A stretch of DNA of 64,000 nt from Acidobacteriota bacterium. Lineage in GTDB: Bacteria; Acidobacteriota; Terriglobia; Terriglobales; Acidobacteriaceae. Below, one piece after another: positions 2,652 to 29,441 of the stretch (within the stretch, counting starts at the first letter, position 1; every line of letters starts with the position of its first letter). The notes beneath the pieces are model-generated. The model did no database searches, was not told the DNA's origin, and saw only the letters and a list, made by a program, of their open reading frames with translations. The translations under genes were made by a program, and so were the position numbers. The DNA lies in assembly GCA_003225555.1 (NCBI GenBank), contig QIAM01000065.1, positions 1 to 64,000 of the forward strand, read 5' to 3'.

Positions 2652-2763
2652 AAGAAGCTGCCACAAGTGTGGGAATCGATGGCAGCACTGCACGCCAACA
2701 CGATTGAGGCGCCGGTCTACTGGAAGCAGTTCGAACCGGAGGAAGGACACTTCGACTTCACAA
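2652..2763 (+). pseudogene. N-terminal fragment of a GH35/GH42-type beta-galactosidase
   Basis: About 37 codons read LPQVWESMAALHANTIEAP, then VYWKQFEPEEGHFDFTN. This is the conserved early barrel strand of GH35/GH42-like glycoside hydrolases, where the protein reads 'ANT..APVYW..FEPEEG.FDFT'. The match breaks off sharply after TN at about 2763. No start codon, no catalytic glutamates and no downstream domain remain. The sharp end, about 130 bases before a partial tRNA gene, suggests truncation by recombination. Confidence 0.6.
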
Positions 2764-2894
2764 ACGAGAGGCCGGATTCCGGGCACCCTCCGGGCACCCA
2801 GACCGATGTCTTGTTGGTATCTCATTGATTTTGTTGTGTCGTGCATGGAGTACGCTGGACGTGCAAGTTGTTGTTTGTAATTGTGTTGGCGACC

Positions 2895-2939
2895 CCTTTA
2901 AGGCATGGGTCGCAGGTTCGAATCCTGCCGCGCTCACCA
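2895..2939 (+). other. 3' half of a tRNA-Lys gene (probable att remnant)
   Basis: The segment can be laid out as tRNA positions 32-76. The anticodon loop is CCTTTAA (anticodon TTT, with C instead of U at position 33). The 3' anticodon strand is GGCAT, the variable loop GGGTC, the T stem GCAGG/CCTGC with loop TTCGAAT, the acceptor strand CGCGCTC, the discriminator A, and an encoded CCA. Upstream bases do not supply ATGCC, a D arm or a GAGCGCG acceptor partner, so the 5' half is absent. A break at the anticodon loop is typical of tyrosine-integrase attachment sites. It is not a functional tRNA. Confidence 0.62.
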
Positions 2940-3000
2940 GATCACTGTTTGACGGCTTTACCCGGGAGTCGCCCGTGCCCACATGGTCGGTGCCCTCTAG

Positions 3001-4428
3001 TTAAAAGCGGTTCCAGAGGAACTGATTGTAGACATCGTGGTGGTACTGCACTTCGGGCACCTTCACAAAAGTTCCCAGCAGGCGGGGACAACGATCGGCG
3101 GCGGCTTGTTTCAGATCGGCGTACCTTCCCTTCACGTCTTCACCGAGCAGTTCTGTAGTCCACTTTGCCTCGCGGAAATTTGCAATGGCATCGTAGATAT
3201 TGTCGGGCAAGTAGCGCTCGGCTTGGCGCAGGTTCTTGATCTCGGCAGTCTCTCCATCCAAGCCGGTTTTGAAAATCGAATACATGACCAGGTAGGGATT
3301 CGCGTCAGGAGAAACGGAGCGAACCTCGACGCGCATGCTCTTCTCGTTGCCGATAGGGATACGGATCATGGAGCCACGGTCGACCGGCGATGCCTTGATC
3401 TGGTTGGGCGCCTCGAAGTGAGGATCGAGACGGCGGTAAGCGTTGACGCTGGCGTTCAGCATCAGGCAAATGTCGTTCCCGTGCGTGAGGATGCGATCGA
3501 GAAACGCCCAACCTGCCTTGCTCAGTTTCTCCTCGCCCTTGGGATCCCAAAAGAGATTCTTGCCGTTACTCACTGAGACGTTTGTGTGCATGCCACTGCC
3601 GTTCACGCCGACAACTGGTTTGGGCAGGAACGAAGCTGTGAGTCCCATGTTGGTCGCCACCTGGCGGCAGATCAGCTTGTAGAGTTGAATCTGGTCGGCG
3701 GCGGCTACGACTTCGCCGTAGCCGTAATTGATTTCAAACTGTGACGGCGCAACCTCCGGATGGTCTTTCTCGTTCTGGAAGCCCATGGCCCGTTGCACTT
3801 CGGCAGTCGTGTCGATGAACGTACGCAGAGGATCGCCGGGCAGCGAGTGATAGTATCCGCCGGTGTTGACGTACTCGAACTCGCCGGTTTCGTGATAGCG
3901 GCGCTCGGCATCGGGCCCTTTGAACAGGAAGCCTTCGATTTCGTTGGCGGCGTTGAGCGTGTAGCCCTTCTCTTTATGGAGTTCGGCTGCGAATTTCTTC
4001 AGGATGCCGCGAATGTCAGCGCTGTAAGGCTCTCCACTTTTGTCTATTACATCGCCGAAGACCAGGACTTTGCCGGAACCGAAGACATCGGCTGGCGCCC
4101 AGTAGAACGCTGCCCAGTCAATGCCAAGCCTCAGGTCGCTTTCGCGTTGGGCGGTGAATCCGCGGATGGACGAGCCGTCGAAGGTGAGGTTGTCCCAGCT
4201 CTTGAGCAGAAATTTCTTGTCGTAGTCGAGCATGTGCAGACGGCCTTCAAGGTCGCTGAAGAGAACGGTCACGGCTTTGATCCGCTTCTCGTCAGACAAG
4301 TACTTGAGACGATCTTCCCGAACCTTGTCAGCAGCTACGTGGTTCTGGCGTTGCTCTTTGGCTTTCAGGTTCAACTGCTCGAGTTCGTCATACGAGAGCG
4401 CAAGAAAATCCCGCAATTCTGAGGGCAT
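3001..4428 (-). CDS. glnA: Glutamine synthetase, type I
   Basis: This cytoplasmic enzyme makes glutamine from glutamate, ammonia and ATP. At 475 residues it has GSI length. Seen motifs include the Asp/Ser loop FDGSSIRGF, the metal-binding NEIEGFLF, the ATP/metal segment VNGSGMHTNVSVS, and arginine-rich NEKSMRVEVRS. The usual adenylylation segment (KNLYDLP) is not obvious near LPDNIYDAI, so control by adenylylation is doubtful. The start is supported by a strong GAAGGAGAT ribosome site. A sigma-54-like promoter lies about 70 bases upstream. It sits head-to-head with a porin and near amt and the P-II gene, which marks a nitrogen-assimilation block. Confidence 0.95.
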   Translation of the reverse strand: MPSELRDFLALSYDELEQLNLKAKEQRQNHVAADKVREDRLKYLSDEKRIKAVTVLFSDLEGRLHMLDYDKKFLLKSWDNLTFDGSSIRGFTAQRESDLRLGIDWAAFYWAPADVFGSGKVLVFGDVIDKSGEPYSADIRGILKKFAAELHKEKGYTLNAANEIEGFLFKGPDAERRYHETGEFEYVNTGGYYHSLPGDPLRTFIDTTAEVQRAMGFQNEKDHPEVAPSQFEINYGYGEVVAAADQIQLYKLICRQVATNMGLTASFLPKPVVGVNGSGMHTNVSVSNGKNLFWDPKGEEKLSKAGWAFLDRILTHGNDICLMLNASVNAYRRLDPHFEAPNQIKASPVDRGSMIRIPIGNEKSMRVEVRSVSPDANPYLVMYSIFKTGLDGETAEIKNLRQAERYLPDNIYDAIANFREAKWTTELLGEDVKGRYADLKQAAADRCPRLLGTFVKVPEVQYHHDVYNQFLWNRF

Positions 4429-4498
4429 ATATCTCCTTCAACGAGCCGGCCGAGCGCAAGTTTCTCGGACCGGCAAGATGAGCGACAGGATAATGTGT

Positions 4499-4515
4499 CG
4501 CGTACTCGCTGCCAA
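4499..4515 (-). promoter_or_regulatory. Candidate sigma-54 promoter of glnA
   Basis: The minus strand reads TTGGCAGCGAGTACGCG. It has GG and GC separated by exactly 10 bases, as in the -24/-12 consensus TGGCAC-N5-TTGC. The -24 half is near perfect and the -12 half is weaker. Transcription would start near 4487, about 60 bases before glnA. A nearly identical element faces the other way at 4838-4853. Between the two sites (4516-4837) I see no gene. Confidence 0.45.
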
Positions 4516-4837
4516 GAGTTTGCGGCATGAAAAAAATCAATCAGACCTATAAGCTGATGAAATAGGTCCGCGAGTTTTGAGCACGGCGGCAATGGCTGCG
4601 TGCCGCAACTTTTCTTCTGTTGCGCCAGAAGCAGAATTCGCGATATCTCTTTCAGCGAGGCCTGAAGGCGCGGCGTTTGCGCACACCAGATCTGTCCCCT
4701 TTTGCATCCGCAACGGCAATTCGGCGATAAATTCGATTTATTGTCCGCATAAGCTCTGCTTCTCAATGAACTTTCGATACGGCGCAGAAAAAGTATGCGT
4801 TGGACTAGTGCCCGATATATCGCTAAGGTTCGCGTGC

Positions 4838-15289: not shown

Positions 15290-16051
15290 TCATACGAGCG
15301 TGACGTCGATTCCGGCTTGCTTCAGCACGCGGAGGTCGGATTTTGGGATGCCTCGGTCGGTGATGATCTCGTGCAGGGCGGAGGGCGGGGCGATCAGGGA
15401 GAGGCTGCGGCGTCCGAACTTGCTGGAGTCGCACACTACGACCGTGCGCTTGGCGATCTCGACCATGACTCTGTTGACTTTGGCTTCGAGCAAGTTGGGG
15501 GTGCTCAGGCCGAAGTGAACGTCGAAGCCATCGACGCCCAGAAAAAGTAGATCGGCACTAAGCCGTCGCAGGGTCTCCTCCGCGATAGGTCCGACTAACG
15601 AAAACGAATTCTTGCGCAACGTGCCGCCGGTGAGAATTACTTCTACCGATGTTCCTGCCAACTCAGCGGCAATGTTCAACGCATTGGTCACGATGGTCAG
15701 ACTGCGAAAATTGCGCAGGGCGCGGGCGATGGCCGAAGTGGTGGTGCCGGAGTCGAGAATGATGACCTGACCTTCCTTGACTTTTCCCGCGGCGCTTTCG
15801 GCGATCCGCATTTTTTCCTGACGGTGAAGTTTTTCCTTCTCGCGCAACGTGGGATCTTCGAGAGCGCCTTCACGGGCGGGAAGCGCGCCGCCATGGGTAC
15901 GGTGGACAAGCCCGTGCGCATGGAGAATTTCGAGATCCTTGCGAATCGTGACCTGCGAGGTTTCAAAAGTGCGGGAGAGTTCGGTGACGAGAACGCGACC
16001 CTGGCGGGTAAGCAGATCGAGAATGGCACGGCGACGTTCTTCGTTCAACAC
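15290..16051 (-). CDS. DeoR-family transcriptional repressor
   Basis: The 253-residue protein has an N-terminal helix-turn-helix (ERRRAILDLLTRQGRVLVTE, then TSQVTIRKDLEILHAHG). A DeoR sensor domain follows with ILDSGTTTSAIARAL and ILTGGTLRKNSFSLVGP, which binds a phosphosugar. It probably represses itself and the PfkB gene and releases on sugar-phosphate. Two direct repeats lie about 50-90 bases upstream of its start. Confidence 0.92.
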   Translation of the reverse strand: MLNEERRRAILDLLTRQGRVLVTELSRTFETSQVTIRKDLEILHAHGLVHRTHGGALPAREGALEDPTLREKEKLHRQEKMRIAESAAGKVKEGQVIILDSGTTTSAIARALRNFRSLTIVTNALNIAAELAGTSVEVILTGGTLRKNSFSLVGPIAEETLRRLSADLLFLGVDGFDVHFGLSTPNLLEAKVNRVMVEIAKRTVVVCDSSKFGRRSLSLIAPPSALHEIITDRGIPKSDLRVLKQAGIDVTLV

Positions 16052-16102
16052 GAGATTAGCTTGCTGGCAGCTCGACGCGCGGAAGTTTGTACGCGCGACG
16101 GT

Positions 16103-16141
16103 GTTTTGTTTCGTATTTCTTTTTATAGCGTTTTATTTCGT
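16103..16141. promoter_or_regulatory. Direct-repeat operator candidate for DeoR
   Basis: GTTTTGTTTCGT (16103-16114) and GTTTTATTTCGT (16130-16141) are 11-of-12 identical and spaced 27 bases start to start. T-rich half-sites with TTTCG are typical of DeoR-family operators. The rest of this intergenic stretch (16052-16373) shows no gene. Confidence 0.42.
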
Positions 16142-16373
16142 TTGTCCACTGGAAAAACTAGTGAGTTGACGATCCACTGCTGGGCTGACTGAAGGCCCAC
16201 GAATGAGTCCTCGCTTCTCTGCGGTGCAAAGTTGCTCCGGTAACCCCTGTTTTTGTGGACAGTTGGAACCAACCGTGTTGATAACCAATGCAGTACCTAC
16301 CCTGCAGAGAGATTGCGTTATAGGACGCCTTCTGACGTAATCTCAAATTGGGATTTTAAAGGGGCGGGTTTCG

Positions 16374-16778
16374 ATGAGCAGTGAATGTTACGAAAACCGA
16401 ACAAAGGAAAATTCTGGCCAGGTAGACATGGAGCAGCAAGTGTTTTTCCGGTCGCAATCCGTCGTTTCGCGAATAGTAGCGGGCGAGACTTTGATCGTTC
16501 CAATACGCGGACGGGTGGGAGATCTAGCGTCGATTTACAGCTTCAACGGAACCGGCTCGCTGATCTGGCAGATGTTGGAATCGCCGAGGACGGTCGTCGA
16601 GCTGGTTGAAGCAGTAGCCCAAGAGTTTGACGTGGAACGTGCGCGAGCCGAAAAGGATGTGAAGCGGTTTGTGAGAGAGATGATTGCGGTTTGTCTGGTC
16701 GAGGTCTCAACGTTTGTGGCTGCCGGGACTGAAGGACCAGTGGGGCGGGAAGGACTGGCGGCAGCGGGCGCGAGGTAA
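16374..16778 (+). CDS. PqqD-family peptide chaperone (RRE protein)
   Basis: The 134-residue protein carries the PqqD fold: FRSQSVVSRIVAGETLIVPI, then SIYSFNGTGSLIWQMLESPRTVVELVEAV, and a helical end. PqqD proteins are RiPP recognition elements. They bind a leader peptide and present it to a radical SAM enzyme, here the next gene (32 bases away). The start follows a GGGGCGGG ribosome site; a second Met at 16428 is possible. It opens a five-gene operon. Confidence 0.83.
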   Translation: MSSECYENRTKENSGQVDMEQQVFFRSQSVVSRIVAGETLIVPIRGRVGDLASIYSFNGTGSLIWQMLESPRTVVELVEAVAQEFDVERARAEKDVKRFVREMIAVCLVEVSTFVAAGTEGPVGREGLAAAGAR

Positions 16779-16810
16779 ACGCGTCCGCTGCTTTCAGATA
16801 TAGGAGGCGT

Positions 16811-18073
16811 GTGGATCAGTTAAGCTACGGGGCCTTCAGCGCGGATTTGCACCAGCGGCAAGCCGGAACGCGGTCGCCGATGCAAGTTTCCATCGAAGTT
16901 ACGCGGCGCTGTCCGTTGGCGTGCTTGCACTGTTATAACAACTTGCCCATGGGCGACATGGACGCCAGGCGGCGTGAGATGAGCAAGGAAGAACATTTCC
17001 AACTGCTCGACGAACTGGCGGAGATGGGAACTTTCTGGCTGCTCTACACGGGCGGGGAAGTCTTCGCGCGCAAAGATTTTTTGGAGATCTACACCTACGC
17101 CAAGAAAAAAGGATTTCTGATCACGCTGTTCACCAACGGCACGATCATCACGGAAGAGATTGCGGACTACTTGGCGGAGTGGCCTCCGTTTGCCATCGAG
17201 ATTACGTTGTACGGGCGGACCAGGGAGACGTACGAGGCGCTGACGGCGGTTCCGGGCTCTTATGATCGATGCCTGCGCGGAATTAGATTGCTACAAGAAC
17301 GAGGCCTGCCGCTCAAGCTGAAGACGGTGGCGACCAGTGTGAACAAGCACGAAGTCCTGGCGATGAAGCATTTTGCAGAGGAAGAATTAGGCGTTGAGTT
17401 CAAGACAGACGGGCAAATCAATCCGCGCATCGACTGCTCGCAGAGTCCGCTAGCGGTGCGGCTTGCGCCGGAGGAAGTCGTCGCCCTCGACCTGCATTCT
17501 CCCAAGGAAGTAAGCGAGTATCGCAGGCTGGCCAAGCGCGATGCGGAGAATCCCCCCAACTTAGCGGAGAACGAGAGCGTGTATTTTTGCGGCGGAGGAA
17601 TGAACTCGTTTGCGATTAATGCTTACGGGGAGATGGGAATTTGCGTGATCTCGCAGCAGGAAACCTTCAGCATTCGCGGGGTTGAAGTCAAGCAAGTCTG
17701 GGATGGTTATCTGCAAGAGTTGCGAACCCGAAAGCGCACACGCATAACAAAATGCATTGAGTGCCGTATCCAGTCACTCTGTGGGATGTGTCCGGCGAAT
17801 GGTGAACTGGAAAACGGGGACCGGGAGAGTCCCGTGTCGTTTCTTTGCAACGTCGCGCACCTGCGGGCGGCCGTAATTGGAGCCGAGATTCCGGCTCATG
17901 GGGACTGCGAATTCTGCGTTGGCGGAAGTGAGCATGAGGCATTGTTGGAGTCGGCTCGGCGGATTGCAAGTAAGGAAATCGATGTGGAGAGCTGGGCAGG
18001 ACCTCAACAAGTTCTGCCGATCCTCAACAATCCGAGTGTGGGTGTGGGGGCGTGCGGAAGTTGCGGCCACTGA
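16811..18073 (+). CDS. Radical SAM/SPASM peptide-modifying enzyme
   Basis: The GTG at 16811 follows TAGGAGG. The radical SAM cluster motif is C34-x3-C38-x2-C41 (RRCPLACLHC), with a Gly-Gly-Glu (YTGGEV) for SAM binding. A SPASM-type C-terminus carries multiple Cys: YFCGGG, CVISQ, KCIECRIQSLCGMCPANG and FLCN, which would hold auxiliary 4Fe-4S clusters. A Cys/Gly-rich tail (ACGSCGH) follows. Such enzymes install thioether or C-C links in ribosomal peptides. The target is very likely the 56-residue peptide encoded next. Confidence 0.88.
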   Translation: MDQLSYGAFSADLHQRQAGTRSPMQVSIEVTRRCPLACLHCYNNLPMGDMDARRREMSKEEHFQLLDELAEMGTFWLLYTGGEVFARKDFLEIYTYAKKKGFLITLFTNGTIITEEIADYLAEWPPFAIEITLYGRTRETYEALTAVPGSYDRCLRGIRLLQERGLPLKLKTVATSVNKHEVLAMKHFAEEELGVEFKTDGQINPRIDCSQSPLAVRLAPEEVVALDLHSPKEVSEYRRLAKRDAENPPNLAENESVYFCGGGMNSFAINAYGEMGICVISQQETFSIRGVEVKQVWDGYLQELRTRKRTRITKCIECRIQSLCGMCPANGELENGDRESPVSFLCNVAHLRAAVIGAEIPAHGDCEFCVGGSEHEALLESARRIASKEIDVESWAGPQQVLPILNNPSVGVGACGSCGH

Positions 18074-18098
18074 GGGGACGACAACAGCAGGAGGCTGA

Positions 18099-18269
18099 AT
18101 GAATCAGGAATTGAACCAGGCCGACGGCAAGAAGCCGTATGAGCCACCACAACTGACGACGATCAGCCTGCGCCCGGAGGAGGCGGTTCTCGGGCATTGC
18201 AAGACTTCTGGGTCGAGTTTTCCGGGCTTTCCTTGCACCGCATTTGTTTGCCAGAACGTTGGATCGTAA
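18099..18269 (+). CDS. Candidate RiPP precursor peptide (56 aa, three Cys)
   Basis: The ATG follows GCAGGAGGCTGA. The N-terminal half is charged and has Y14-E-P-P17-Q-L19. This YxxPxL motif is known from leaders bound by PqqD-type RREs. Then come SLRPEEAVLG and a core with C34, C46 and C51: HCKTSGSSFPG, FPCTAF, VCQNVGS. The gene lies between the radical SAM enzyme and the HprK-like kinase, with gaps of about 25 and 30 bases. The processing site and modification are unknown. It is too short to have been scored as a gene by common length cut-offs. Confidence 0.75.
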   Translation: MNQELNQADGKKPYEPPQLTTISLRPEEAVLGHCKTSGSSFPGFPCTAFVCQNVGS

Positions 18270-18299
18270 GGAATCCAGAGCCGAGGCATCTCAGGCAAG

Positions 18300-19229
18300 A
18301 TGAAAGGCGACCTTGAGGGTGTACTGCCGCTGGAGTTCGAAGAACTGGGCGCTGCACATTGCAGCCGGTTCCGAATAGGTGGGGTGTCGGTGGAGGTCGC
18401 AGGTGATCGCGACTCGGACGTTGCTCTAGTACCCTCGTTGCTTCCGTTTCGCGTCGAAGCCGGTGTTTCTGACATTAATATTCAAGTCAAATGGGCGGAC
18501 AGCCTTACTCCAAGGGCAGGGCGGCAGCTCTTCGACTCCGGAACCACTTGGCGCGTATACGAAGACGAAGCCGGATTTCAGTTCGATTTCAATTCCCCGG
18601 TTTTTGGTAAGCGGCCGTATAAGAGATTGCATGTGGATAAGCGCTTCCGCCAGGCAGCGCTTCACATGAGCGAGGAGTCTTTTGCTGGATTTCCCAATGT
18701 AGCGGAGCCTTTGGAGTATCCGCTGGATGAGCTCCTGATCATGCATCGGCTCACGCAGGAGCAGGCGGTTGAGTTGCACAGTTGCGGAATCGTGAGCTCT
18801 GATGGAACCGGTAACTTGTTCGTCGGGCATTCGGGGGCTGGCAAGAGCACGACGACGCGGTTGTGGACTTCACTCGAGGACGTGGAAATTCTAAGTGATG
18901 ACCGAATCATCGTTCGGAGGGAACATGGCGAGATCGTCATGTACGGGACACCATGGCACGGGGAGGCGGCGTTTGCGTCTCCTGCGAGTGCACCGCTTTC
19001 GAGAATTTTCATTCTGGAGCATGGACTCGGAAATACGCCGGTGAGACTCTCTCCCAGCCAGGCGGTTGCGGAACTGTTTGCGCGCAGCTTTGTGCCGTTT
19101 CACCGGCACGAGTACGTGAACTCGGCGCTGGAGTTTTTGCAGGATGTTGTGAACGTCGTGCCTTGTTACCGCTACACGTTCGAGCCGGACGAGAGAGCGG
19201 TCGAGAGAATTCTCAATTTCCATGACTAG
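18300..19229 (+). CDS. HprK-related kinase
   Basis: The 309-residue protein has an N-terminal domain and a C-terminal kinase with P-loop GHSGAGKSTTTRL, as in HPr kinase/phosphorylase and its non-PTS relatives. The SDDRIIVRREHG segment supplies acidic residues after it. HprK relatives in RiPP-type loci are known; the substrate is usually unproven. Its last 8 bases overlap the giant downstream gene (CATGACTAG), so the two are translationally coupled. The ribosome site for its ATG is weak. Confidence 0.75.
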   Translation: MKGDLEGVLPLEFEELGAAHCSRFRIGGVSVEVAGDRDSDVALVPSLLPFRVEAGVSDINIQVKWADSLTPRAGRQLFDSGTTWRVYEDEAGFQFDFNSPVFGKRPYKRLHVDKRFRQAALHMSEESFAGFPNVAEPLEYPLDELLIMHRLTQEQAVELHSCGIVSSDGTGNLFVGHSGAGKSTTTRLWTSLEDVEILSDDRIIVRREHGEIVMYGTPWHGEAAFASPASAPLSRIFILEHGLGNTPVRLSPSQAVAELFARSFVPFHRHEYVNSALEFLQDVVNVVPCYRYTFEPDERAVERILNFHD

Positions 19230-22200
19230 TCGCGGTTCTCATTCAGAGATGTTCGAGGCCCTTAGCCGCGAACTGCTGAAGGCTGGAGTGTGCGTCCGTT
19301 TCGAGGCGCGCGGCGGAAGCATGTCACCGAGTATTCGCGACGGCGAGATTGTCCATGTTACTCCCGTAATCGTGAGCAAATTACGAAAGGGCGATATCGT
19401 TTTAACCAAAAGCGACAGCGGCTTCCGCGTCCACAGACTTGTAATTGTCGAGTGTGAAAAGAATGTATTCGTCACACGCGGAGATTGCGGACTGCAGGAT
19501 GACCCGGCGGTACGGGGCGAGGAGATTCTGGGAGTTGCGGAAGCCAAAGAGGTGCAGGTGGGACGGAGAATGGTGCGGGCGAAGCTGAGAGGAATCGGCG
19601 GGCGGGCGCTGCAGTGTGCGGCGAGAGCCGAGGTCCTCCTAAGCAAACTCGGCAAAGTGGCGCGAATTACGTGGAGCCAGCGCAGGGTTTTATCGAAGGC
19701 AGCGCGCGAAGCGCCGCCAAGTCTGGTGTGTGCTCTGGGACTCCTTCTCTTATTATTGATTGGCTCGACCCAGGCTGCGGCCCAGGTTTTGGTGGATGCT
19801 TCAACATCAGGGACCGCCCTGATCACCGGCACCGGTACTGGAACTGTTAACTTCAACCACACAACGACCGCCACCGCGAACCGCCTTCTGCTTGTCGGTG
19901 TGTCCATCAACCTTACGAATTCAAACGGCGCGGCAGTGACCGGCGTGACGTATAACGGCACGGCTCTGAATTTCGTGGGAGCACACAACGACGCCGGAAA
20001 TACGCGCAGGGTGGAGGTGTGGTCGCGTCTCAATCCGGTTGCCGGTGCGAATCTTCCTATCGTTGTCACGGTAAATGTCCCGACAGCCGGAGCGACGGTT
20101 GGTGTCGTAGCGGGAGGGACGACGTTTACCGGCGTAGATCAGACAGTGCCGCTAGGCAATTTCGTTTCTGCGGATGGTGCGGCTGCGTTCAATTCGCAAC
20201 TGGATGTTCCCGGCGTAGTCAATGGGATGGTGTTCGATACGCTGGCCATCGCAGGAAACCGGACGATCACGGTGCCTGCTCCGCAGGTTCAGCAATGGAA
20301 TGCAGTCAGCGGTGGCAGCGGGACTCGGGATCCGCGAGCCAGTGGCAGTACGAGGGCCGGTGCACCGAGCGTGCCGATTTCAGAGACGTTTAATGGTGCA
20401 TCCAACTGGTCGTTGGGAGCAGTTTCCATCAATCCGACGACCGCAGACATTGCGGTCACCACCAGCGTTGTGAGTGCGGTCTTTCTAGGTCAGAACACGA
20501 CGTACAACATTACGGTCACCAACAACGGCCCTTCTCCGGCGAATTCAGTCACGCTTACCGACACACTGGCGGCTGGGTTGACGCTGGTGTCAGTAACGCC
20601 GAGCGCGGGAACAACCTGCGTCGGGGCCGGACCAATTAATTGCACGCTCCCGACTCCCCTGAACAGTGGAGCAACTGCAACGGTCTCTGTAGTGGTAACG
20701 GCGATTGTTGCCGGACAGTATCCCAACACCGCCACCATTGCGGACTCCGGTACGCCTCCCGATCCCAACCTTGGCAACAACTCGTTCACCGCCGTAGCTA
20801 CGGTGCAGTCTGCAGCATGTGCCTCACCGACTTCCGGAGGCAATGGAGTGGGGCTGACGGGAGTAATCAATACCTACTATCCGGGCACGGCCAACGTAGC
20901 GGCCGGTGCCACGTCGATCCCGGTGGGCGCCCCGACGGGTGCGGGGACGCCCATAGCTAGTGGTGATCTCCTGCTGGTCATCCAGATGCAGGATGCCACC
21001 ATTAACACTAGCAACAATGTGAGCTACGGAAACGGCAGCACGGGTGCGGGATTCACTGCCCTCAATCAAGCTGGCAACTTCGAGTTTGTCACGGCCACAG
21101 GAGCAGTCGCCGCAGGTGCGGTCCCCGTTTCTGGCGCGGGCGCCGGCGGTGGTCTCGTCTTTAACTACAACAATTCGGCCTCGGGAGCCACCAAGGGGCA
21201 AAGCACTTATCAGGTCATCCGTGTGCCTCAATACGCGACGGCGAGCCTGGGTGCGGCGTTGACGGCGTCTGCCTGGAATGGCTCAACGGGCGGTGTACTC
21301 GTTGTGGATGTTGCCGGTGCTCTCACTCTAGGGGGACAAACTGTCAGAGTGGACGGGTTCGGATTTCGTGGCGGTGCGGGCATGCAGTTGAACGGCAATG
21401 CGGGAGGAAGCAATGCTGACTTCCGGCAGGTCGCACCAGCAGCCTATGCGGGCGCGGTGGTTGCCGGCTTTGACGCGCCGAAGGGGGAGGGAATCGCTGG
21501 CACTCCGCTTTGGCTGGAGTCAGGTGGGACATTTGCCAACACAGGCACGCACTATCCTAGCGGCGTGGCTGGTACCGACGGCACCATGGCGCGCGGAGCG
21601 CCGGGCAGTGGCGGCGGTGGTGGCACGGATGGTAATCCCACTGCCAACGACCAAAATGCCGGCGGAGGTGGCGGCGGCAACGGCGGCTCAGGAGGCTTTG
21701 GCGGCGATTCGTGGAATACGAATCTTAGTACGGGAGGCGAAGGTGGTGGGCCTTTTCCGGCGACAGTGAACCGTGTTGCCATGGGCGGCGGAGGCGGCGG
21801 CGGTTCGCGAAATAATTCACCAGGAGACAATCAGGCCAGCGCCGGCGCAGCGGGCGGCGGCGTCATTATTATTCGTGCCGGCAGTCTGGCGGGAACGGCA
21901 ACCGTCACCGCCAACGGAGCCGCGGCCTATAACGGGACGCTTAACGACGCGGGTGGTGGCGGCGGAGCCGGCGGCAGCATCGTCATCCTTTCGGCCGGTG
22001 GCGGAGAAGGCGGTCTTACCGTGCAAGCCCAGGGCGGCCGAGGCGGCGATGCTTGGGATATCCAGGCATTTACTCTCGCCAATCGTCACGGCCCGGGCGG
22101 TGGCGGCGGTGGCGGTGCTGTGATTCTTTCAGGGGCTGCTGCAAGCATCAGCGTCGGCGGAGGAGCCAGTGGGACGACATTGAACCCGGGAGCCCCATAC

Positions 22201-25200
22201 GGGGCCACTGCCGGGAACGCAGGAACGACCATCACCAATGCATCGATCACCCAGACTTCGGGAACCCAATCCGGTGCTGGTTGTGTTCCCGACATGACGC
22301 TAGGCAAGAGCCATGTGGGCAATTTCGTTCGGGGATCGGCGGCGAGCTACACAATTCCGGTTCAGAATGTGAGTCCATTTGGGCCAAGCAGCGGAATCGT
22401 TACGATTAACGACACTCTGCCCACGGGGGTTACTCCGACGAGCGCGAGTGGGACGGGGTGGGCCTGCGGAGTGGCGTCGCAGACCGTGAGTTGTACACGT
22501 TCCGACAGTCTGGCGGCCGGAGGAAGCTTTTATCCGTCGATCACGATCAATGTCAATGTGACGCAGACGGCCCCAGCGACGGTGACGAACACTGCGGTGG
22601 TGGGCGGTGGAGGCGAGATCAATTTAGCGAACGATACCGCGACGGACGTGGCGAATGTGGTGTCGAGCGCGGACATGAGCGTGACCGACGCGGGAGCGCC
22701 GAATCCGGTTGCCGCGGGCAGCAACATCACTTATACGCAAGTTGTAACCAACAGCGGTCCGAGCGCGGCGGACAATGCGACGCTGGTGGCTACGGTCCCG
22801 GCGAACACGACGTTTGTTTCGATTGCATCGCCGGCGGGATGGACGTGCGTCACGCCCGGTGTGGGCGGGACCGGGAACGTGGTGTGCAGCATCTCGAACA
22901 TGCTGGGGTCGACGGCCGGCACGTTCACGCTGGTGGTCAAAGTAAACAACGGCACCGCGAACGGAACGGTCATAACAGAAACCGCTTCGGTGAGTTCCTC
23001 GGCGAGCGATCCTAATTCCACGAACAACACGGCGACGGTAAACACAATCGTCGGGGCGACGGCGGGGGCGGACTTGTCGGTGTCGAATGCGGCATCACCG
23101 AATCCGGTGATCGCGGGCAACAATATTACTTATACGCAGGTGGTCACGAATACTGGATCGGCTGCGGCTACGTCAGCTACGTTCACCGAGGCGACACCTG
23201 CGAACACAACGTTTGTCTCCATCACACCGCCGGCTGGTTGGACTTGCGCCGGCTTCCCGCCTACTTGTACGAACCCGAGCGTGGCGGCCGGAGCGAGTGG
23301 AGCGTTTACTGTGGTTTACAAGGTGAACGCGGGCACGGCGAGCGGCACGGTGATTATCGATACTGTGACCGTCAACGCGACCAACGACTCTTTTGCCGGA
23401 GACAATACTGCCACTGCGACCGATGTCGTCGCCACAGCCATACAAGCCGACCTGGCGCTAAGCACGGTGGCTACTCCGAGTGCAGTATTCGCGGGCAACA
23501 ACATCACATACACGCAAACGGTTACGAACAACGGTCCTGCGGCGGCTTCGAACGTCAGCTTCACGGAGGTGATCCCGGCCAATACTACGTTTGTTTCCGT
23601 GGGAGCGCCGGCGGGCTGGTCCTGCACTGTGACCGCCTCGGTGACTTGTACCAATCCAAGCATGAACGCCAGTTCGACGGCGGACATCATTGTCGTTGTG
23701 AACGTCGGACCGGCGGTGGCAGTGGCGTCGATCACGGCGAACTCTTCGGTCACCGCCTCGACGAGTGATCCTGCGTTGTCGAACAACAGCACAACGGTGG
23801 TTACAAGCGTCAGCGTTGCGTGCGATCTGACCGTAACGAACAGCGGTGCTCCGAATCCGGTTGCAGCGGGAAACAACATTACTTATACGCAGACGGTGAC
23901 GAATGGGGGTCCGAGCAATTGCAGCACAGCGACGTTCAGTGAGCCCACGCCAGCGAATACGACGTTTGTGTCGGTCTCGGTGGTAACGAGCGGAGGCGGG
24001 ACGTGGACTTGTCCGAACTCTGCGCCGGTGAGTTGCACCAATCCGAGTGTACCCCCGGGATCGACAGGAACAATCACAGCTATCTATACGGTGAATGCGG
24101 GGACCGCTGCAGGGACGATCATCGCCGACACAGCGTCAGCGACAACGACCTCGCGCGACACGAACCTGAACGACAATTCCGCGACGGTAAATATAGCGGT
24201 GGCGGGCGCTGCCCAGGCTGATTTGCGGGTCACGAACTCGGGCAGTCCGAATCCTGTCACGGCCGGCAACAACATTACCTACACGCAGACGGTGACGAAC
24301 GGCGGACCGGCTACGGCCAATACGATTACTTTCAGTGATCCGGTTCCAGCCAATACGACGGTCGTTTCATTGACGGGTCCGGCGGGATGGACATGCAGCA
24401 TCGTTAGCGTGCCACCTGCTTGTACGATTGCCAGTCTGGCAGCGAATACCACGGCGAATTTCACTTTCGTGGTGAAAGTGAATAACAATGTGGCCTCTGG
24501 CACGACCATCACGCAGACGGACTCAGTTTCGGCGACGACCGGCGACCCGACCTTGGGGAACAACAGCGCATCGGCGAGTGTCGTAGTCGGGAATTCGGCA
24601 GATCTTTCTATTACAAACTCGGCCAGTCCGGTTCCGGTGCAGGCGAATAACAATATTACGTACACGCAGGTTGTAAGCAACCCAGGGCCGAGCGCAGCGA
24701 GCAGTGTCACAGTGACGGAGACCCTGCCCGCAAATACGACGGCTCAGTCCTTGACCGGACCAGCCGGATGGACTTGCGTTCTGGGAACACTGACCTGCAC
24801 GAACCCGAGCCTGGCCATTGGCAGTGCGACGATCACTTTCGTCGTTAAAGTGAATGCTGGAACGGCTGCCGGAACTGCCATCAACGACACGGTAACGGTG
24901 AACTCCTCGACCACCGATCCGAACGCGGGGAATAACATTGCGACCGCCGCGGACGTTGTGGCTACGGCGACGCAGGCGGATCTGATCACGACGAACTTGG
25001 CTGCTCCGACATCGGTGGCAGCGGGAAGCAATGTCACTTATACGCAGAGCGTGACCAACAACGGTCCATCTGCAACGACCGCACCGACGACACTGACGCA
25101 AAGCACTCCGCCGAATACGAACTTCCAATCGATTACATTCCCGGCGGGATGGTCGTGCGTTACGCCTGCCGTCGGGGGCACTGGGACCATCACATGTACG

Positions 25201-28200
25201 GACGCGGGCAGCCTGGGAGTGAATGCCACGGCGAACTTCACCTTGGTGCTACAAGTGAATGCGGGGACGCCTTCCGGTACAAATATCTCCGAAACGGCGA
25301 CCGCGAGCGCCGGCAACATTGTTCCGGGCCTTACGACTAACAGCGCTACGGCAACGGTCGTGGTCGCTAATGCCAACAGCGCGGATATTGCGATCACAAA
25401 GACGGCAACGCCGAATCCGGTGCTGCAGGGCGATACTTTGACCTACACGCTGACGGTGGTCAACAACGGGCCGGCGTCGGCAACTAATGTCACCGTCACG
25501 GATACGCTACCTTCTTCGGTAACTTTCCTTTCCGTCACCACAAACACTGGGACGTGCTCCGAAGCGGGTGGAACCGTAACTTGTCTGCTGGGGACGATGG
25601 CTAATGCGGCGACGGCCACGGTGACGATTCTGACGATTGCGGGGACGCCGGGCATCGTGTCCAATACGGCGACTGTGACCGCGGATCAGACTGATCCGAT
25701 CCCAGCCAATAATTCATCGACGCAGATGGAGACCATCACCGCTGCGACCATGGTTCGATTGCGCTCCTTCACGGCACAAGCCGGGCAAGACAAGAATGGC
25801 GCAAATCGCGTGGTGCTAACGTGGAAGACGGGCGGTGAGGCGCATAACTTAGGCTTCAACGTGTACCGCGAGATGAATGGGAACCGGGTGCGGCTGAATC
25901 CGTCGCTAATTGCGGGCTCCGCGTTGCTGATGCGCGGGTCGCTGCCCCAGCACGCGGCTAAGACGTATGCATGGATCGATCCGTCGGCGGGTGTGGCCGA
26001 GGGTGAGTATTGGCTCGAAGATGTGGACGTGAATGGGAGTCGGACAATGCACGGGCCCGCTTCAGTACACGCCGCCACCGCGGGAACGATTGCCGAAGCC
26101 GCGGCTTCAGCAGCGACGTTTGCCCAGTTGAGCCAGGCCCAGCCTGCGGCATTGTCAGGCGAGAGTCGCGCGGTCGAGGCGGTGGCGCCAGAGTTGATTC
26201 GGACGAGTGATCAGATCCAGCGCCAATTTGAGCTTGCGGCTCATCCAGCGGTCAAAATTCTGGTCCGCCACGAGGGCTGGTATCGAGTGACGCAGCCGGA
26301 GTTGGTCAAGGCGGGCTTGGATCCAAGTGTGGATCCGGCTGCGCTGCGATTGTTTGCGGAGACCTTGGAGCAGCCCATCCAGATCACGGGCGCGACCGCC
26401 GGACGCGGTGGATTCGGGCCGCAAGCTGCGATCAATTTCTACGGGACTGGGATCGATACTCTCTATTCGGGGACGCGAGTTTACTGGCTGGTGGCGCGGG
26501 AAGGGAATGGCAAGCGAATTCATCGCCTGCCGCCATCTTCCGGATCGAACCTGCCGCCGGCTAGCTTCCCCTACGCTGTAGAGTTGCGGCAACGCTCGAC
26601 TTACTTTGCGGCGCTGATTACGCCGAATGGGGACAACTTCTTCGGCGCCTTCATCTCGTCTGTGCCGGTGGATCAGGTGTTGCACGCGGCTCATCTGGAT
26701 AAGGCTTCAACGGAGCCGGTCCATCTTGAGGTGTCGCTGCAAGGAATCATTACCGGCATTCCGCACGACGTGTCGGTAGTGCTGAACGGAACTTCGGTCG
26801 GAGACGTTACATTTACCGGACAGGCCAAGGGAACGTTGCGCGTGAGTGTGCCTCCGGGATTGCTGCTCGAAGGCGCCAACACGGTCACGCTCACGGGACA
26901 GAATGGGTTGTATGACCCCAGCTTGGTGGATTACATCCGCATCGTGTATCCGCATTTGTATGTGGCCGATTCGGACCAATTGAAGTTCAGGGCACGCGCG
27001 GGCGAGCAAATCCACCTGAGCGGATTCGCGACCTTGCCTTCTTCGGTGCTGGATATTGCCGATCCGGAGCGGCCGGTACAACTTACTCCTCACGTCGTAT
27101 CGAAGAATGGCGAGTACGCGATTGAAGTCCAAGTGCCGTGGACCACGACGAGTGATCCAGATTCGCGGATGCACACGCTGCTGGCGGTAGGCGAGGCGAG
27201 AATGGCGACGGCCGCGGGCGTGAGGGCGAATCATCCATCGCAATGGCACAGTGTGCAGGCGGGGGCGGAAATCGCGATGGTGGCACATGAGGGATTCGTT
27301 TCAGCACTGGCGCCGTTACTGCGATCCCATGCGGAGCAGGGAAAATCGTCTGCGGTGGTGCTGGTCGGCGACTTGTATGACGAGTTCAACTTCGGGGAAC
27401 GGAGCCCGAATGCGCTTCGCCAGTTCCTGTTGTATGCGAACAAGAACTGGAAAACGGCGCCGAAGTATTTGCTGCTGCACGGGCGCGCCTCGCTCGATCC
27501 TCGCAACTTTCTGGGCTTCGGGCACCTGGATTTCGTGCCGACAAAGATTGTCCCAACCAGCAGCCTGATGACGGCGTCGGACGATTGGTTCTCAGATTTC
27601 AACGACAGGGGCTTGCCGACGATTGCAACGGGACGCCTGCCGGTGAGCACGGTGGATGAGGCCGATACGGTCGTAGGAAAGATTGCAGCTTACGAAGGGA
27701 AGTCGACGAATGGCCCGTGGACGGACCGGGCGATGATGGTGGCGGATCAGGACGATATTGAGAACTTCACGCAAGATGCACAGAAGGTGCAGTCGCAATT
27801 GTCAGGGTCAATACACGTAACTGACGTATTCACGGGCACTGTAGGAGCTCCCACAGCGCGGCAGCAGATTCTGGATGGCATCAACTCGGGACAGGTGCTG
27901 GTGAACTATCTGGGGCACGGGTCAGAAGAGGAGTGGTCAGGTACGAATCTGTTCAATACGAACTCCGTGCCGTCGTTGACCAATGGCACAGCGCTGCCGG
28001 TGTTCCTCATCATGGATTGCCTGAATGGATTCTTCCAGGATGTTTACGCGCAGCCGCTTGGGGTCACGCTGATGTTGGCTCCGAATGGAGGCGCGGTGGC
28101 GGTGCTGGCATCTTCTGGGCTAAACCTGCCCACGCCGCAGACTCAGCTGGACTTGCGTGTGGTGCAGAATGCTTTCAGCACGCCACGGCCCGCGCTTGGC

Positions 28201-28317
28201 GATGCGATTGTGGAGGCGAAGTCACACGTCTCCGACATCGATGTGCGTAAGACGTACGTGCTGTTTGGCGATCCCGCGATGCAGATCAAGGCCACCGGGA
28301 GCGCCGCGGGCCACTGA
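19222..28317 (+). CDS. Giant protein: signal peptidase-like domain + DUF11 repeats + gingipain-like protease
   Basis: This 3031-residue single frame has several parts. Residues about 20-110 form an S24/S26 signal-peptidase-like domain: Ser33 in GGSMSPSIRDGE, His71 in FRVHRLV and Asp88 in TRGDCG, a Ser-His-Asp set like Sec11/SipW (no Lys base). Residues 167-188 form a hydrophobic segment with an AAAQ end, like an internal signal peptide. A first DUF11 repeat (about 408-530), a Gly-rich stretch (about 787-993), nine more DUF11 repeats (about 1025-2176) and an FN3-like domain follow. The C-terminus is peptidase C25, with His2899 in NYLGHGSE and Cys2933 in LIMDCLNG, a gingipain-like spacing. A GTG at 19657 could start the exported part alone. 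The protein probably works with the RiPP genes upstream. Confidence 0.8.
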   Translation: MTSRGSHSEMFEALSRELLKAGVCVRFEARGGSMSPSIRDGEIVHVTPVIVSKLRKGDIVLTKSDSGFRVHRLVIVECEKNVFVTRGDCGLQDDPAVRGEEILGVAEAKEVQVGRRMVRAKLRGIGGRALQCAARAEVLLSKLGKVARITWSQRRVLSKAAREAPPSLVCALGLLLLLLIGSTQAAAQVLVDASTSGTALITGTGTGTVNFNHTTTATANRLLLVGVSINLTNSNGAAVTGVTYNGTALNFVGAHNDAGNTRRVEVWSRLNPVAGANLPIVVTVNVPTAGATVGVVAGGTTFTGVDQTVPLGNFVSADGAAAFNSQLDVPGVVNGMVFDTLAIAGNRTITVPAPQVQQWNAVSGGSGTRDPRASGSTRAGAPSVPISETFNGASNWSLGAVSINPTTADIAVTTSVVSAVFLGQNTTYNITVTNNGPSPANSVTLTDTLAAGLTLVSVTPSAGTTCVGAGPINCTLPTPLNSGATATVSVVVTAIVAGQYPNTATIADSGTPPDPNLGNNSFTAVATVQSAACASPTSGGNGVGLTGVINTYYPGTANVAAGATSIPVGAPTGAGTPIASGDLLLVIQMQDATINTSNNVSYGNGSTGAGFTALNQAGNFEFVTATGAVAAGAVPVSGAGAGGGLVFNYNNSASGATKGQSTYQVIRVPQYATASLGAALTASAWNGSTGGVLVVDVAGALTLGGQTVRVDGFGFRGGAGMQLNGNAGGSNADFRQVAPAAYAGAVVAGFDAPKGEGIAGTPLWLESGGTFANTGTHYPSGVAGTDGTMARGAPGSGGGGGTDGNPTANDQNAGGGGGGNGGSGGFGGDSWNTNLSTGGEGGGPFPATVNRVAMGGGGGGGSRNNSPGDNQASAGAAGGGVIIIRAGSLAGTATVTANGAAAYNGTLNDAGGGGGAGGSIVILSAGGGEGGLTVQAQGGRGGDAWDIQAFTLANRHGPGGGGGGGAVILSGAAASISVGGGASGTTLNPGAPYGATAGNAGTTITNASITQTSGTQSGAGCVPDMTLGKSHVGNFVRGSAASYTIPVQNVSPFGPSSGIVTINDTLPTGVTPTSASGTGWACGVASQTVSCTRSDSLAAGGSFYPSITINVNVTQTAPATVTNTAVVGGGGEINLANDTATDVANVVSSADMSVTDAGAPNPVAAGSNITYTQVVTNSGPSAADNATLVATVPANTTFVSIASPAGWTCVTPGVGGTGNVVCSISNMLGSTAGTFTLVVKVNNGTANGTVITETASVSSSASDPNSTNNTATVNTIVGATAGADLSVSNAASPNPVIAGNNITYTQVVTNTGSAAATSATFTEATPANTTFVSITPPAGWTCAGFPPTCTNPSVAAGASGAFTVVYKVNAGTASGTVIIDTVTVNATNDSFAGDNTATATDVVATAIQADLALSTVATPSAVFAGNNITYTQTVTNNGPAAASNVSFTEVIPANTTFVSVGAPAGWSCTVTASVTCTNPSMNASSTADIIVVVNVGPAVAVASITANSSVTASTSDPALSNNSTTVVTSVSVACDLTVTNSGAPNPVAAGNNITYTQTVTNGGPSNCSTATFSEPTPANTTFVSVSVVTSGGGTWTCPNSAPVSCTNPSVPPGSTGTITAIYTVNAGTAAGTIIADTASATTTSRDTNLNDNSATVNIAVAGAAQADLRVTNSGSPNPVTAGNNITYTQTVTNGGPATANTITFSDPVPANTTVVSLTGPAGWTCSIVSVPPACTIASLAANTTANFTFVVKVNNNVASGTTITQTDSVSATTGDPTLGNNSASASVVVGNSADLSITNSASPVPVQANNNITYTQVVSNPGPSAASSVTVTETLPANTTAQSLTGPAGWTCVLGTLTCTNPSLAIGSATITFVVKVNAGTAAGTAINDTVTVNSSTTDPNAGNNIATAADVVATATQADLITTNLAAPTSVAAGSNVTYTQSVTNNGPSATTAPTTLTQSTPPNTNFQSITFPAGWSCVTPAVGGTGTITCTDAGSLGVNATANFTLVLQVNAGTPSGTNISETATASAGNIVPGLTTNSATATVVVANANSADIAITKTATPNPVLQGDTLTYTLTVVNNGPASATNVTVTDTLPSSVTFLSVTTNTGTCSEAGGTVTCLLGTMANAATATVTILTIAGTPGIVSNTATVTADQTDPIPANNSSTQMETITAATMVRLRSFTAQAGQDKNGANRVVLTWKTGGEAHNLGFNVYREMNGNRVRLNPSLIAGSALLMRGSLPQHAAKTYAWIDPSAGVAEGEYWLEDVDVNGSRTMHGPASVHAATAGTIAEAAASAATFAQLSQAQPAALSGESRAVEAVAPELIRTSDQIQRQFELAAHPAVKILVRHEGWYRVTQPELVKAGLDPSVDPAALRLFAETLEQPIQITGATAGRGGFGPQAAINFYGTGIDTLYSGTRVYWLVAREGNGKRIHRLPPSSGSNLPPASFPYAVELRQRSTYFAALITPNGDNFFGAFISSVPVDQVLHAAHLDKASTEPVHLEVSLQGIITGIPHDVSVVLNGTSVGDVTFTGQAKGTLRVSVPPGLLLEGANTVTLTGQNGLYDPSLVDYIRIVYPHLYVADSDQLKFRARAGEQIHLSGFATLPSSVLDIADPERPVQLTPHVVSKNGEYAIEVQVPWTTTSDPDSRMHTLLAVGEARMATAAGVRANHPSQWHSVQAGAEIAMVAHEGFVSALAPLLRSHAEQGKSSAVVLVGDLYDEFNFGERSPNALRQFLLYANKNWKTAPKYLLLHGRASLDPRNFLGFGHLDFVPTKIVPTSSLMTASDDWFSDFNDRGLPTIATGRLPVSTVDEADTVVGKIAAYEGKSTNGPWTDRAMMVADQDDIENFTQDAQKVQSQLSGSIHVTDVFTGTVGAPTARQQILDGINSGQVLVNYLGHGSEEEWSGTNLFNTNSVPSLTNGTALPVFLIMDCLNGFFQDVYAQPLGVTLMLAPNGGAVAVLASSGLNLPTPQTQLDLRVVQNAFSTPRPALGDAIVEAKSHVSDIDVRKTYVLFGDPAMQIKATGSAAGH

Positions 28318-28379
28318 ATGATTCCAGCCGCGGCTGTTTTATGACCATCCCCCTCATCTGAAGGCACGTCCGTTTCAAC

Positions 28380-29441
28380 TCACGCTGACTTGCGACCTGA
28401 ACCTGACTGGACAGCCGAGGCGGCTGTCGCTACGTGGGTGCTGACAGTCCGCAGGGGTTCCGCCAGGCCTCGCATTACTCTCTCGAATCCTGCGAAGTCT
28501 AGAGACTGAGGGCCGTCCGAGAGGGCGCGCTCGGGGCAGGGATGGACTTCGATGATCAAGCCATCGGCTCCAACGGCTACGGCGGCGCGGGAAACTGCGG
28601 CGATCAGGCTCTGCTTGCCAGTGCCATGAGATGGGTCGGCGATCACGGGAAGATGGGATAGATCGCGGGCCAAGGCTACGGCAGCGAGGTCGATGGTGTT
28701 GCGAGTTTCCGTCTCGAACGTCTTGATGCCGCGTTCGCATAGAACGACCTGACGATTGCCGCCGGAGAGCAGGTACTCGGCAGCGAGCAACCATTCTTTT
28801 ACGGTGGCAGATGGGCCGCGTTTGAGCAGGACGGGCTTGTTGATCACGGCCAGACGGCGCAGGAGAGCGAAGTTCTGCATATTGCGGGCGCCGACCTGTA
28901 GCATGTCGGCGTATTCGCAGATGATGTCGATGTCCTCGGTGCTCATCACTTCGGTGACCACGGGCAGTCCGGTTTCTTCCCGAGCTTCACGCAGAATCTT
29001 CAGCGCCTCAAGGCCCAAGCCCTGGAAGTCGTAGGGAGACGTGCGGGGCTTGTAAGCGCCGCCGCGAAGGATGGTGGCGCCGGCACGCTTGATGGCATGA
29101 GCGGTCTCGATGAGCTGTTCGCGGGATTCGACAGAGCATGGGCCGGCGATGACAACCACTTCCGGACCGCCAATGTCTACCCCGTTGACGGAAACAATGG
29201 AGCGGTCAGGTTTGACCTGGCGGCTTACCAGTTTGAAAGGCTGGGCGATGGCGACGACGTTATCGACCCCGGGAGCGACCTGCAGGGCTTCAATTTCGTG
29301 GCGCCGGCCGCTGCCGACGGCGGCCACAATCGTGCGTTCGGTGCCCCGCGTGACGTGAGGCTGGTAGCCGGCCTCCCGGACGCGGTCGATGACATGGTTG
29401 ATCTCGGCTTCGGTGGCCTTCTCGGACATGTTGACGATCAT
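28380..29441 (-). CDS. aroF: 3-deoxy-7-phosphoheptulonate synthase (DAHP synthase)
   Basis: This 353-residue enzyme is the first step of aromatic amino acid synthesis (PEP plus erythrose-4-phosphate). The ATG at 29441 follows AGGGAGAC. An N-terminal FDX-like domain ([21 protein letters not shown]) precedes the barrel, which has [22 protein letters not shown] and ADPSHGTGK. This matches the type I-beta class. The last about 10 codons ([10 protein letters not shown]) are encoded by a copy of a 30-bp palindromic repeat, so the C-terminus was extended or replaced by the repeat. An attenuator leader lies upstream. Confidence 0.93.
28407..28436. repeat. 30-bp palindromic repeat, copy 2 (inside the aroF 3' end)
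   Basis: This is an exact match of the element at 14147-14176, with ACAGCCGAGGCGGCTGT at its core. Here it lies within the last codons of aroF, on the non-coding strand, near the end of the convergent giant gene. Confidence 0.8.

Follow-up and report, generated by a model that had tools for sequence, protein, structure and literature searches.

A candidate radical SAM peptide-modification cassette with a fused S26–C25 protein in Acidobacteriota

The genome of an Acidobacteriota bacterium (class Terriglobia; GenBank assembly GCA_003225555.1; 4.42 Mb in 114 contigs) carries a five-gene cassette that may represent a new type of pathway for ribosomally synthesized and post-translationally modified peptides (RiPPs). 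The window analysed here is a stretch of 64,000 nt, namely positions 1–64000 of contig 56 (QIAM01000065.1), in which five open reading frames (ORFs) lie head to tail on the + strand, with spacers of 32, 25, and 30 nt followed by an 8-nt overlap. The first ORF (16374..16778) encodes a PqqD-family RiPP recognition element (RRE) of 134 amino acids (aa; PF05402, 3.3e-16) and the second (16811..18073) a radical SAM/SPASM maturase of 420 aa (PF04055, 3.2e-21). The SPASM match of the latter (P0002) is sub-threshold in Pfam (16.2 vs 21.5 bits), and the protein scores far under the curated cut-offs of the 25 families listed among the 74 matched. Its place among radical SAM/SPASM proteins is indicated by the CxxxCxxC motif (C34, C38, C41) together with the SPASM cysteines; over 15 chosen orthologues C34, C38, C41, C260, C278, C315, C318, C324, C327, and C346 are invariant. 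The third ORF (18099..18269), recognised by its conservation and with AGGAGG ahead of its ATG, encodes a putative precursor peptide of 56 aa with three cysteines and no Pfam or NCBIfam family match. The peptide consists of a leader with YxxP and LRPEEAVLG and a core of the form HCK...C...C...GS, the border between the two being a guess. The fourth ORF (18300..19229) encodes an HprK-like candidate peptide kinase of 309 aa with a P-loop GHSGAGKST (176–184) and an LSDD motif (198–201). Its identity is read mainly from the P-loop and the DD motif because the match to HprK-related kinase B (2e-5, 23.8 bits) is far under the cut-off of 200; an HPr kinase is its top match among solved structures (E 9e-4).

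The fifth ORF (19222..28317), which overlaps the kinase gene, encodes a fused protein of 3031 aa recognised from Pfam and NCBIfam matches. From the N- to the C-terminus, it comprises an S26 domain, an Arg-rich linker, a hydrophobic stretch, an A-x-A/Q site (the slash marking the cut), an AgmC-like Gly-rich part, the DUF11 repeats, and finally the C25 region, which is PorU-like. The S26 domain (19222..19560) resembles archaeal/SipW-type signal peptidases (TIGR02228, 6e-9, below cut-off) and is assigned to S26-type peptidases by its triad Ser33-His71-Asp88. It is followed by an internal Sec-like signal sequence (residues 164–187; 19711..19782), visible as a hydrophobic peak, with a possible cut AAA/Q after residue 187 placed by eye. 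The Gly-rich region (residues 547–974; 20860..22143) is similar to the N-terminal part of AgmC (NF047640, 5e-23, below cut-off). DUF11 matches cover ten stretches over the whole protein, the main repeat stretch occupying residues 1051–2167 (22372..25722; Pfam, borders by eye). The PorU-like region (residues 2339–3023; 26236..28290) contains the Peptidase_C25 domain (2686–3021) with His2899 and Cys2933. An earlier sequence-only reading had described five genes in one direction with short gaps and one overlap, ending in a giant gingipain-like protease with a signal-peptidase domain. All five ORFs are found in that arrangement and the PorU/gingipain-like C25 part has its catalytic residues in place; the signal-peptidase domain was also recovered, with the refinement that it is N-terminal and precedes the internal signal-like sequence.

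Conservation was examined in a sample of 399 genomes of the same class, using the kinase as query. Some match was obtained in 78 genomes; 24, including the window's own, reached at least 227 bits and the next best scored 75 bits. The regions around all 23 other orthologues were examined. In the aligned kinases (21 of the 24), the ...GKST motif and S199-D201 are invariant. The order PqqD–radical SAM–peptide–HprK–S26 is the same in all these loci as far as the contigs reach, the exceptions being L039 and L054, where PqqD is truncated by the contig end or lies beyond it, and L056, with a radical SAM gene in two frames. The peptide lies directly upstream of the kinase in 24/24 genomes. As a query alone, it gave strong matches in 25 of the 399 genomes, i.e., the same 24 and G226, where the contig ends just past the peptide, and weak ones in two more, with one match per genome. 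The C25 region was found in 23 genomes, all inside the 24 with the kinase; in 19 it shares a contig with the cassette, and in the remaining four the contig carrying the cassette breaks off within the giant gene. Within the window's genus, six genomes were sampled; the kinase orthologue, the peptide, and C25 are all present in three of these and all absent from the other three. The giant protein varies in size, being without a DUF11 match in G386 and similarly short in L061 (1289 aa). No further gene, exporters included, recurs in more than seven of 28 loci (ORFs of at least 90 aa in the stretches examined), and the most frequent extra gene cluster shifts place and strand among the at most seven loci that have it.

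The search was extended to a sample of 386 genomes of the phylum, in which the kinase was found at E ≤ 1e-30 in 36 genomes of 16 family codes. Loci were examined from 30 of the 35 other genomes (all except G438, G461, G538, G634, and G695). Across families of the phylum, the maturation genes (PqqD, radical SAM, kinase, and S26) and the peptide stay together. Related cassettes, some incomplete, also occur among the listed matches in metagenome-assembled genomes (MAGs) labelled Nitrospirae, Planctomycetes, Aminicenantes, and Deltaproteobacteria/Syntrophaceae; in L066, the radical SAM and S26 models gave no match. The class and phylum loci and the closest named records among those listed make up 67 loci (L065 being the same contig as L050). 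S26 and C25 are fused in 20, in different ORFs in 14 (including two class loci, L038 and L052, whose frame is broken), and in seven C25 occurs without a detected S26; of the rest, 22 have S26 only, three have neither, and in one the kinase is off the contig end. Thus, C25 is near the cassette in 41/67 loci. Its place varies: it follows S26 (L062, L166, L167, L171, L172, L174, L191), lies upstream of PqqD (L237, L239, L183, L184, L240, L188) or directly after the kinase (L165, L168, L170, L180), precedes S26 (L189), or is 11 kb away (L169). Among the remaining 26 loci, 11 show no C25 even though their sequence extends 4 kb or more downstream from the kinase, 14 end within 4 kb, and L131 is without a kinase. 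In the Nitrospirae-labelled MAG, S26 and C25 are separate genes and C25 has a signal-like start, judged by eye. As cassettes with separate S26 and C25 exist in other groups, the linkage between cassette and C25 seems to predate the fusion, and the 3031-aa protein would be a later fusion. The sequence-only reading had noted that neighbours not conserved together would leave the link as mere proximity. Its five-gene order was found again in the other 23 class genomes as far as contigs reach, apart from G349, which is without C25. The orthologue searches accordingly reject mere proximity for the peptide and the four maturation genes; for C25 it stays as a rival and is weighed below.

The peptide itself shows a uniform pattern. 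The leader YxxP...LRPEEAVLG is kept in the 20 aligned class peptides (of 24), and the putative precursor stands beside a predicted modifying enzyme in 24/24 class loci, in keeping with a RiPP. Among 76 loci scanned, ten gave no peptide at E ≤ 1e-3 (L058, L069–L076, L187). In the 66 peptide-bearing loci (64 distinct tails), YxxP and CK are each found in 66/66 and two further cysteines in 65/66, the YxxP and CK counts being partly circular as these motifs are contained in the search model. Serine is the last residue in 66/66 loci (55 GS and 11 AS), a stop directly after it not being required for the count. In the PqqD, radical SAM, and HprK frames of the class and phylum loci, used as a control, it is last in 12/162, the stop at the frame end being unchecked for frames from phylum loci.

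The Ser-His-Asp triad of S26 is kept in 24/24 aligned sequences, including that of G349, where S26 is a stand-alone protein of ~154 residues without a hydrophobic segment. In 23/24 class loci, S26 continues in frame into a signal-like sequence, and S26 and C25 are in one frame in 20 loci (19 distinct). A signal-peptidase-like site is present in 22 of the 23 relatives listed. The catalytic His and Cys of C25 are invariant in all 18 class rows (of 19) that reach them and are kept in 17/17 sequences from the phylum and the Nitrospirae-labelled MAG, which places the domain in the C25 family. Furthermore, in 12 of 23 fused loci there is no start codon with a Shine–Dalgarno-like motif between S26 and the signal sequence, and in L048 the linker is without any start codon, which means that the exported part there could be made only through the S26 domain. 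Owing to a frame that is open in 19 distinct loci and to the L048 linker, an artefact of sequencing or start-site choice is unlikely.

Based on these features, the five-gene set with its fused giant protein is proposed as a new type of radical-SAM RiPP pathway, with a probability of roughly 60% for its six steps taken together. In the first step, the PqqD protein would bind the YxxP motif of the leader. Secondly, the SPASM radical SAM enzyme would modify the Cys-bearing core, most likely by thioether cross-links, as suggested by its family and the three conserved cysteines. Thirdly, the HprK-like kinase would phosphorylate the C-terminal Ser of the precursor. Fourthly, the S26 domain, on the cytosolic side, would remove the leader with the help of the RRE, perhaps after ...AVLG, a site guessed from the conserved leader end. 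These four steps draw on homology to tested enzymes and on conservation. In the fifth step, suggested by sequence, the nascent giant protein would enter the Sec route through its internal signal and be split at A-x-A/Q by the host signal peptidase, yielding a leader peptidase and a secreted DUF11–C25 protease. Finally, C25 may serve this pathway beyond the inner membrane by acting on either the exported peptide or the target of that peptide; this step, drawn from linkage, is the weakest. The PqqD, kinase, and S26 steps have tested precedents. LppS, an archaeal-type signal-peptidase homologue, cleaves the leader of its RiPP precursor only with the RRE LppB, and S29A, H68A, and D93A each abolish this RRE-dependent cleavage (Popov et al. 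2026, PMC13381572). In the same work, YxxP in the leader is required for RRE binding and the HprK-like LppK adds several phosphates to core Ser3 (PMC13381572). Similarly, the kinase PadeK transfers phosphate to the C-terminal Ser of the paeninodin precursor (PMC9266682). The biosynthetic logic of the cassette is likely as far as sequence can indicate. The earlier suggestion that the locus could make, phosphorylate, and cleave a peptide fits the families, YxxP, the terminal Ser in all peptide-bearing loci, and the intact S26 triad. Its further suggestion of display or processing at the cell surface found no support, as no anchor was recognised, the loci gave no conserved exporter gene, and C25 is missing near the cassettes of G349 and of seven genomes of one family (f31).

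Several observations weigh against the proposed pathway, in addition to the partly circular motif counts. The scores of the kinase, S26, and PorU are under their curated cut-offs. In L037 there is no A-x-A/Q-like site, and 11 of the 23 fused loci have linker start codons with Shine–Dalgarno-like motifs, from which the exported part may be started separately; the window is among them, with three. In the linear polyphosphorylated peptide (LPP) system of LppS, the phosphorylated Ser is core residue 3, whereas the last Ser is proposed here. Moreover, G349 keeps everything but C25, and in G386 there is an additional C25, lacking S26, that is not linked to the cassette. Seven of the 11 loci that show no C25 within at least 4 kb past the kinase belong to f31, and of these seven genomes, three have a C25 match elsewhere and four have none. 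In seven C25-bearing loci the S26 model found no S26. Lastly, C25 was found at E ≤ 1e-20 in 124/386 phylum genomes, 97 of which have no kinase match at E ≤ 1e-30.

The rival that survives best accepts the cassette as real and regards C25 as a passenger, a general secreted protease that happens to share the operon and whose fusion became fixed in one class through neutral gene joining. The 97 genomes and the C25-less cassettes of G349 and f31 speak for it. In addition, 13 of 20 C25 regions examined gave no radical SAM, kinase, or peptide match (among them, L227 has a weak PqqD-model match and L231 an S26-model match). Three others are known cassettes (L237, L239, L240), and a further three are truncated at contig ends (L233, L241, L242); of these, the C25 of L241 may be linked to a cassette at the other end of the same contig. 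In L238 (2177–10079; G604), a C25 is ~3 kb from a different radical SAM–PqqD–HprK–S26 cluster on the opposite strand. Against a passenger stands the class sample, in which C25 occurs only with the cassette (23/23 genomes), as well as the in-frame run of S26 into the exported part in 23/24 class loci. The link also persists under reordering, with C25 upstream, separate, or beside divergent genes. In the phylum sample, 27/36 kinase genomes also have C25 against ~11.6 expected from the totals, a figure uncorrected for relatedness. In a tree of 44 C25 domains, six linked/unlinked changes (5–7 over bootstrap trees) were counted against a shuffled mean of 13.1, at least four of them forced by well-supported branches. 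Six of the linked rows make up a group of their own, another 18 belong to a group of 20 rows, and the rest are in two small mixed groups; L180 is a long branch. As linked rows are clustered yet sit in several places, the link was either made more than once or is old. On balance, a passenger role appears rather unlikely.

It is also conceivable, though unlikely, that the peptide is a modified regulator or subunit of C25, such as an inhibitor, activator, or prosthetic peptide, rather than a released product. A single, highly conserved peptide per class genome, the protease as the only large partner with no other gene, exporter included, recurring, and the existence of enzymes served by peptide-derived groups would agree with this. 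However, a peptide of the same pattern is present in 10 of the 11 C25-less loci with at least 4 kb downstream (the exception, L187, gave no peptide at E ≤ 1e-3), G557 and G710 of the phylum sample each carry two cassettes, and there is no sign of a route from the peptide to the exported protease. Quite unlikely is a two-compartment RiPP maturase, i.e., a sortase-type polyprotein, divided by signal peptidase, whose cytosolic S26 would free the phosphorylated and radical-SAM-modified peptide and whose exported C25 would ligate or display it at the surface. That S26 acts as a conventional signal peptidase, on the giant protein or on other membrane substrates, instead of trimming the peptide would fit its family match, its intact triad, and the signal-peptidase-like site later in the same chain, but is very unlikely in view of the missing hydrophobic segment before S26, which would leave it cytosolic, of the S26 of G349, alone and also without such a segment, and the separate S26 ORFs of other families, and of its relative LppS, a proven leader peptidase (PMC13381572). 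The pathway proposed above, with S26 as leader peptidase and C25 as an exported partner, remains the preferred reading.

Around the cassette, the flanking genes are on the opposite strand, with DeoR- and PfkB-type genes upstream and a DAHP synthase gene downstream. Scans gave no sigma-70-like promoter (consensus) at 16040–19300, no terminator-like site at 28200–28500, and no tRNA in the window. An ordinary pyrroloquinoline quinone (PQQ) operon is ruled out, as a separate PQQ-type operon with PqqB/C/D/E-like genes in order (named by eye) is on contig 13 of the same genome (L057, 4238–7505). A second cassette on contig 9 (L058, 4964–7988, minus strand) comprises a peptide, S26, HprK-like kinase, PqqD, and radical SAM, and adjoins a 393-aa gene at 3504–4685; its peptide of 54 aa, missed by the peptide model, also ends in Ser. 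The second C25 protein of G386, of the same family as the first, has a signal-like start and is away from the cassette (L128, 5843–11545). The f31 cassettes form a variant without nearby C25 (L177; also L176, L178, L179, L186, L192, L193), and the kinase and S26 of L177 are separated by a 783-aa gene and a gene that looks, by eye, like a response regulator. Additionally, single frames in the Desulfobulbaceae-type L069 (8522–10546) and L070 (8519–10504) match both the radical SAM and HprK models and adjoin further radical SAM genes.

Among known systems, the LPP pathway (LppA/K/B/S/D/N) of Bacillota is close in precursor handling. Judged by sequence, both have a discrete RRE, an HprK-like kinase, and an S26-type leader peptidase, together with the YxxP leader motif, and the triad Ser33-His71-Asp88 corresponds to LppS S29/H68/D93 (PMC13381572). 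Beyond YxxP, the leaders differ by eye, LRPEEAVLG being found here instead of the LPP consensus YxxPxVLxHQxIxFETxxS. LPP also has an MsbA-like exporter and a nucleoside triphosphate (NTP) transferase, neither of which recurs here (28 loci) or occurs in ten flanking window genes. The available text of PMC13381572 reports LPP as restricted to Bacillota and describes no fusion and no C25 in it; the words radical and Acidobacter are absent from its main text, and its Discussion states the roles of LPPs and paeninodins as still unknown. Paeninodin-type lasso peptides share a discrete PqqD-like B1 and an HprK-like kinase with a conserved C-terminal Ser, as in 66/66 loci here. They differ in a lasso cyclase and a B2 cysteine leader peptidase, which are neither recurrent here nor in the ten flanking genes, no genome-wide search having been made. 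To our knowledge, paeninodin-type pathways are without radical SAM, S26, or C25. Sactipeptides, ranthipeptides, PQQ, and mycofactocin share a peptide precursor and a SPASM enzyme that often has a partner, or a domain of its own, resembling PqqD; we know of no kinase, S26, or C25 in their pathways. The SynChlorMet cassette (ScmC/D/E/F, NCBIfam names) has HprK-like, PqqD-like, and radical SAM members, but the proteins here are far under its cut-offs, and we know of no S26–C25 protein in it. With PorU, the type IX sortase, and gingipains, the giant protein shares the PorU-like N-terminal part, the C25 domain, and the catalytic His and Cys; it differs in a PorU score of about half the curated cut-off (226 vs 420 bits) and in the fused DUF11 repeats and S26. 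A role as type IX sortase is unsupported by this score and by SprA, matched in 0/6 genomes in a search whose positive controls also gave no match. In the open-licence literature (titles and abstract starts), no paper was found that combines radical SAM, HPr kinase, and PqqD or that links RiPPs to C25, so the union of these families, regarded as undescribed in the sequence-only reading, found no description there either. Since the exporter, NTP transferase, leader consensus, lasso cyclase, and B2 are missing near the cassette, it is set apart from LPP and paeninodin; its precursor handling is like theirs, yet it is placed in neither type. If the proposal is true, the kinase/S26 RiPP group reported in 2026 gains a radical-SAM branch outside Bacillota, whose kinase family was detected in 16 family codes within the phylum sample. 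The proposal also hints that a secreted C25 protease is a working partner of such peptides. Through the fusion of a leader peptidase to an exported protease via an internal signal, the function of phosphorylated RiPPs could then be approached directly.

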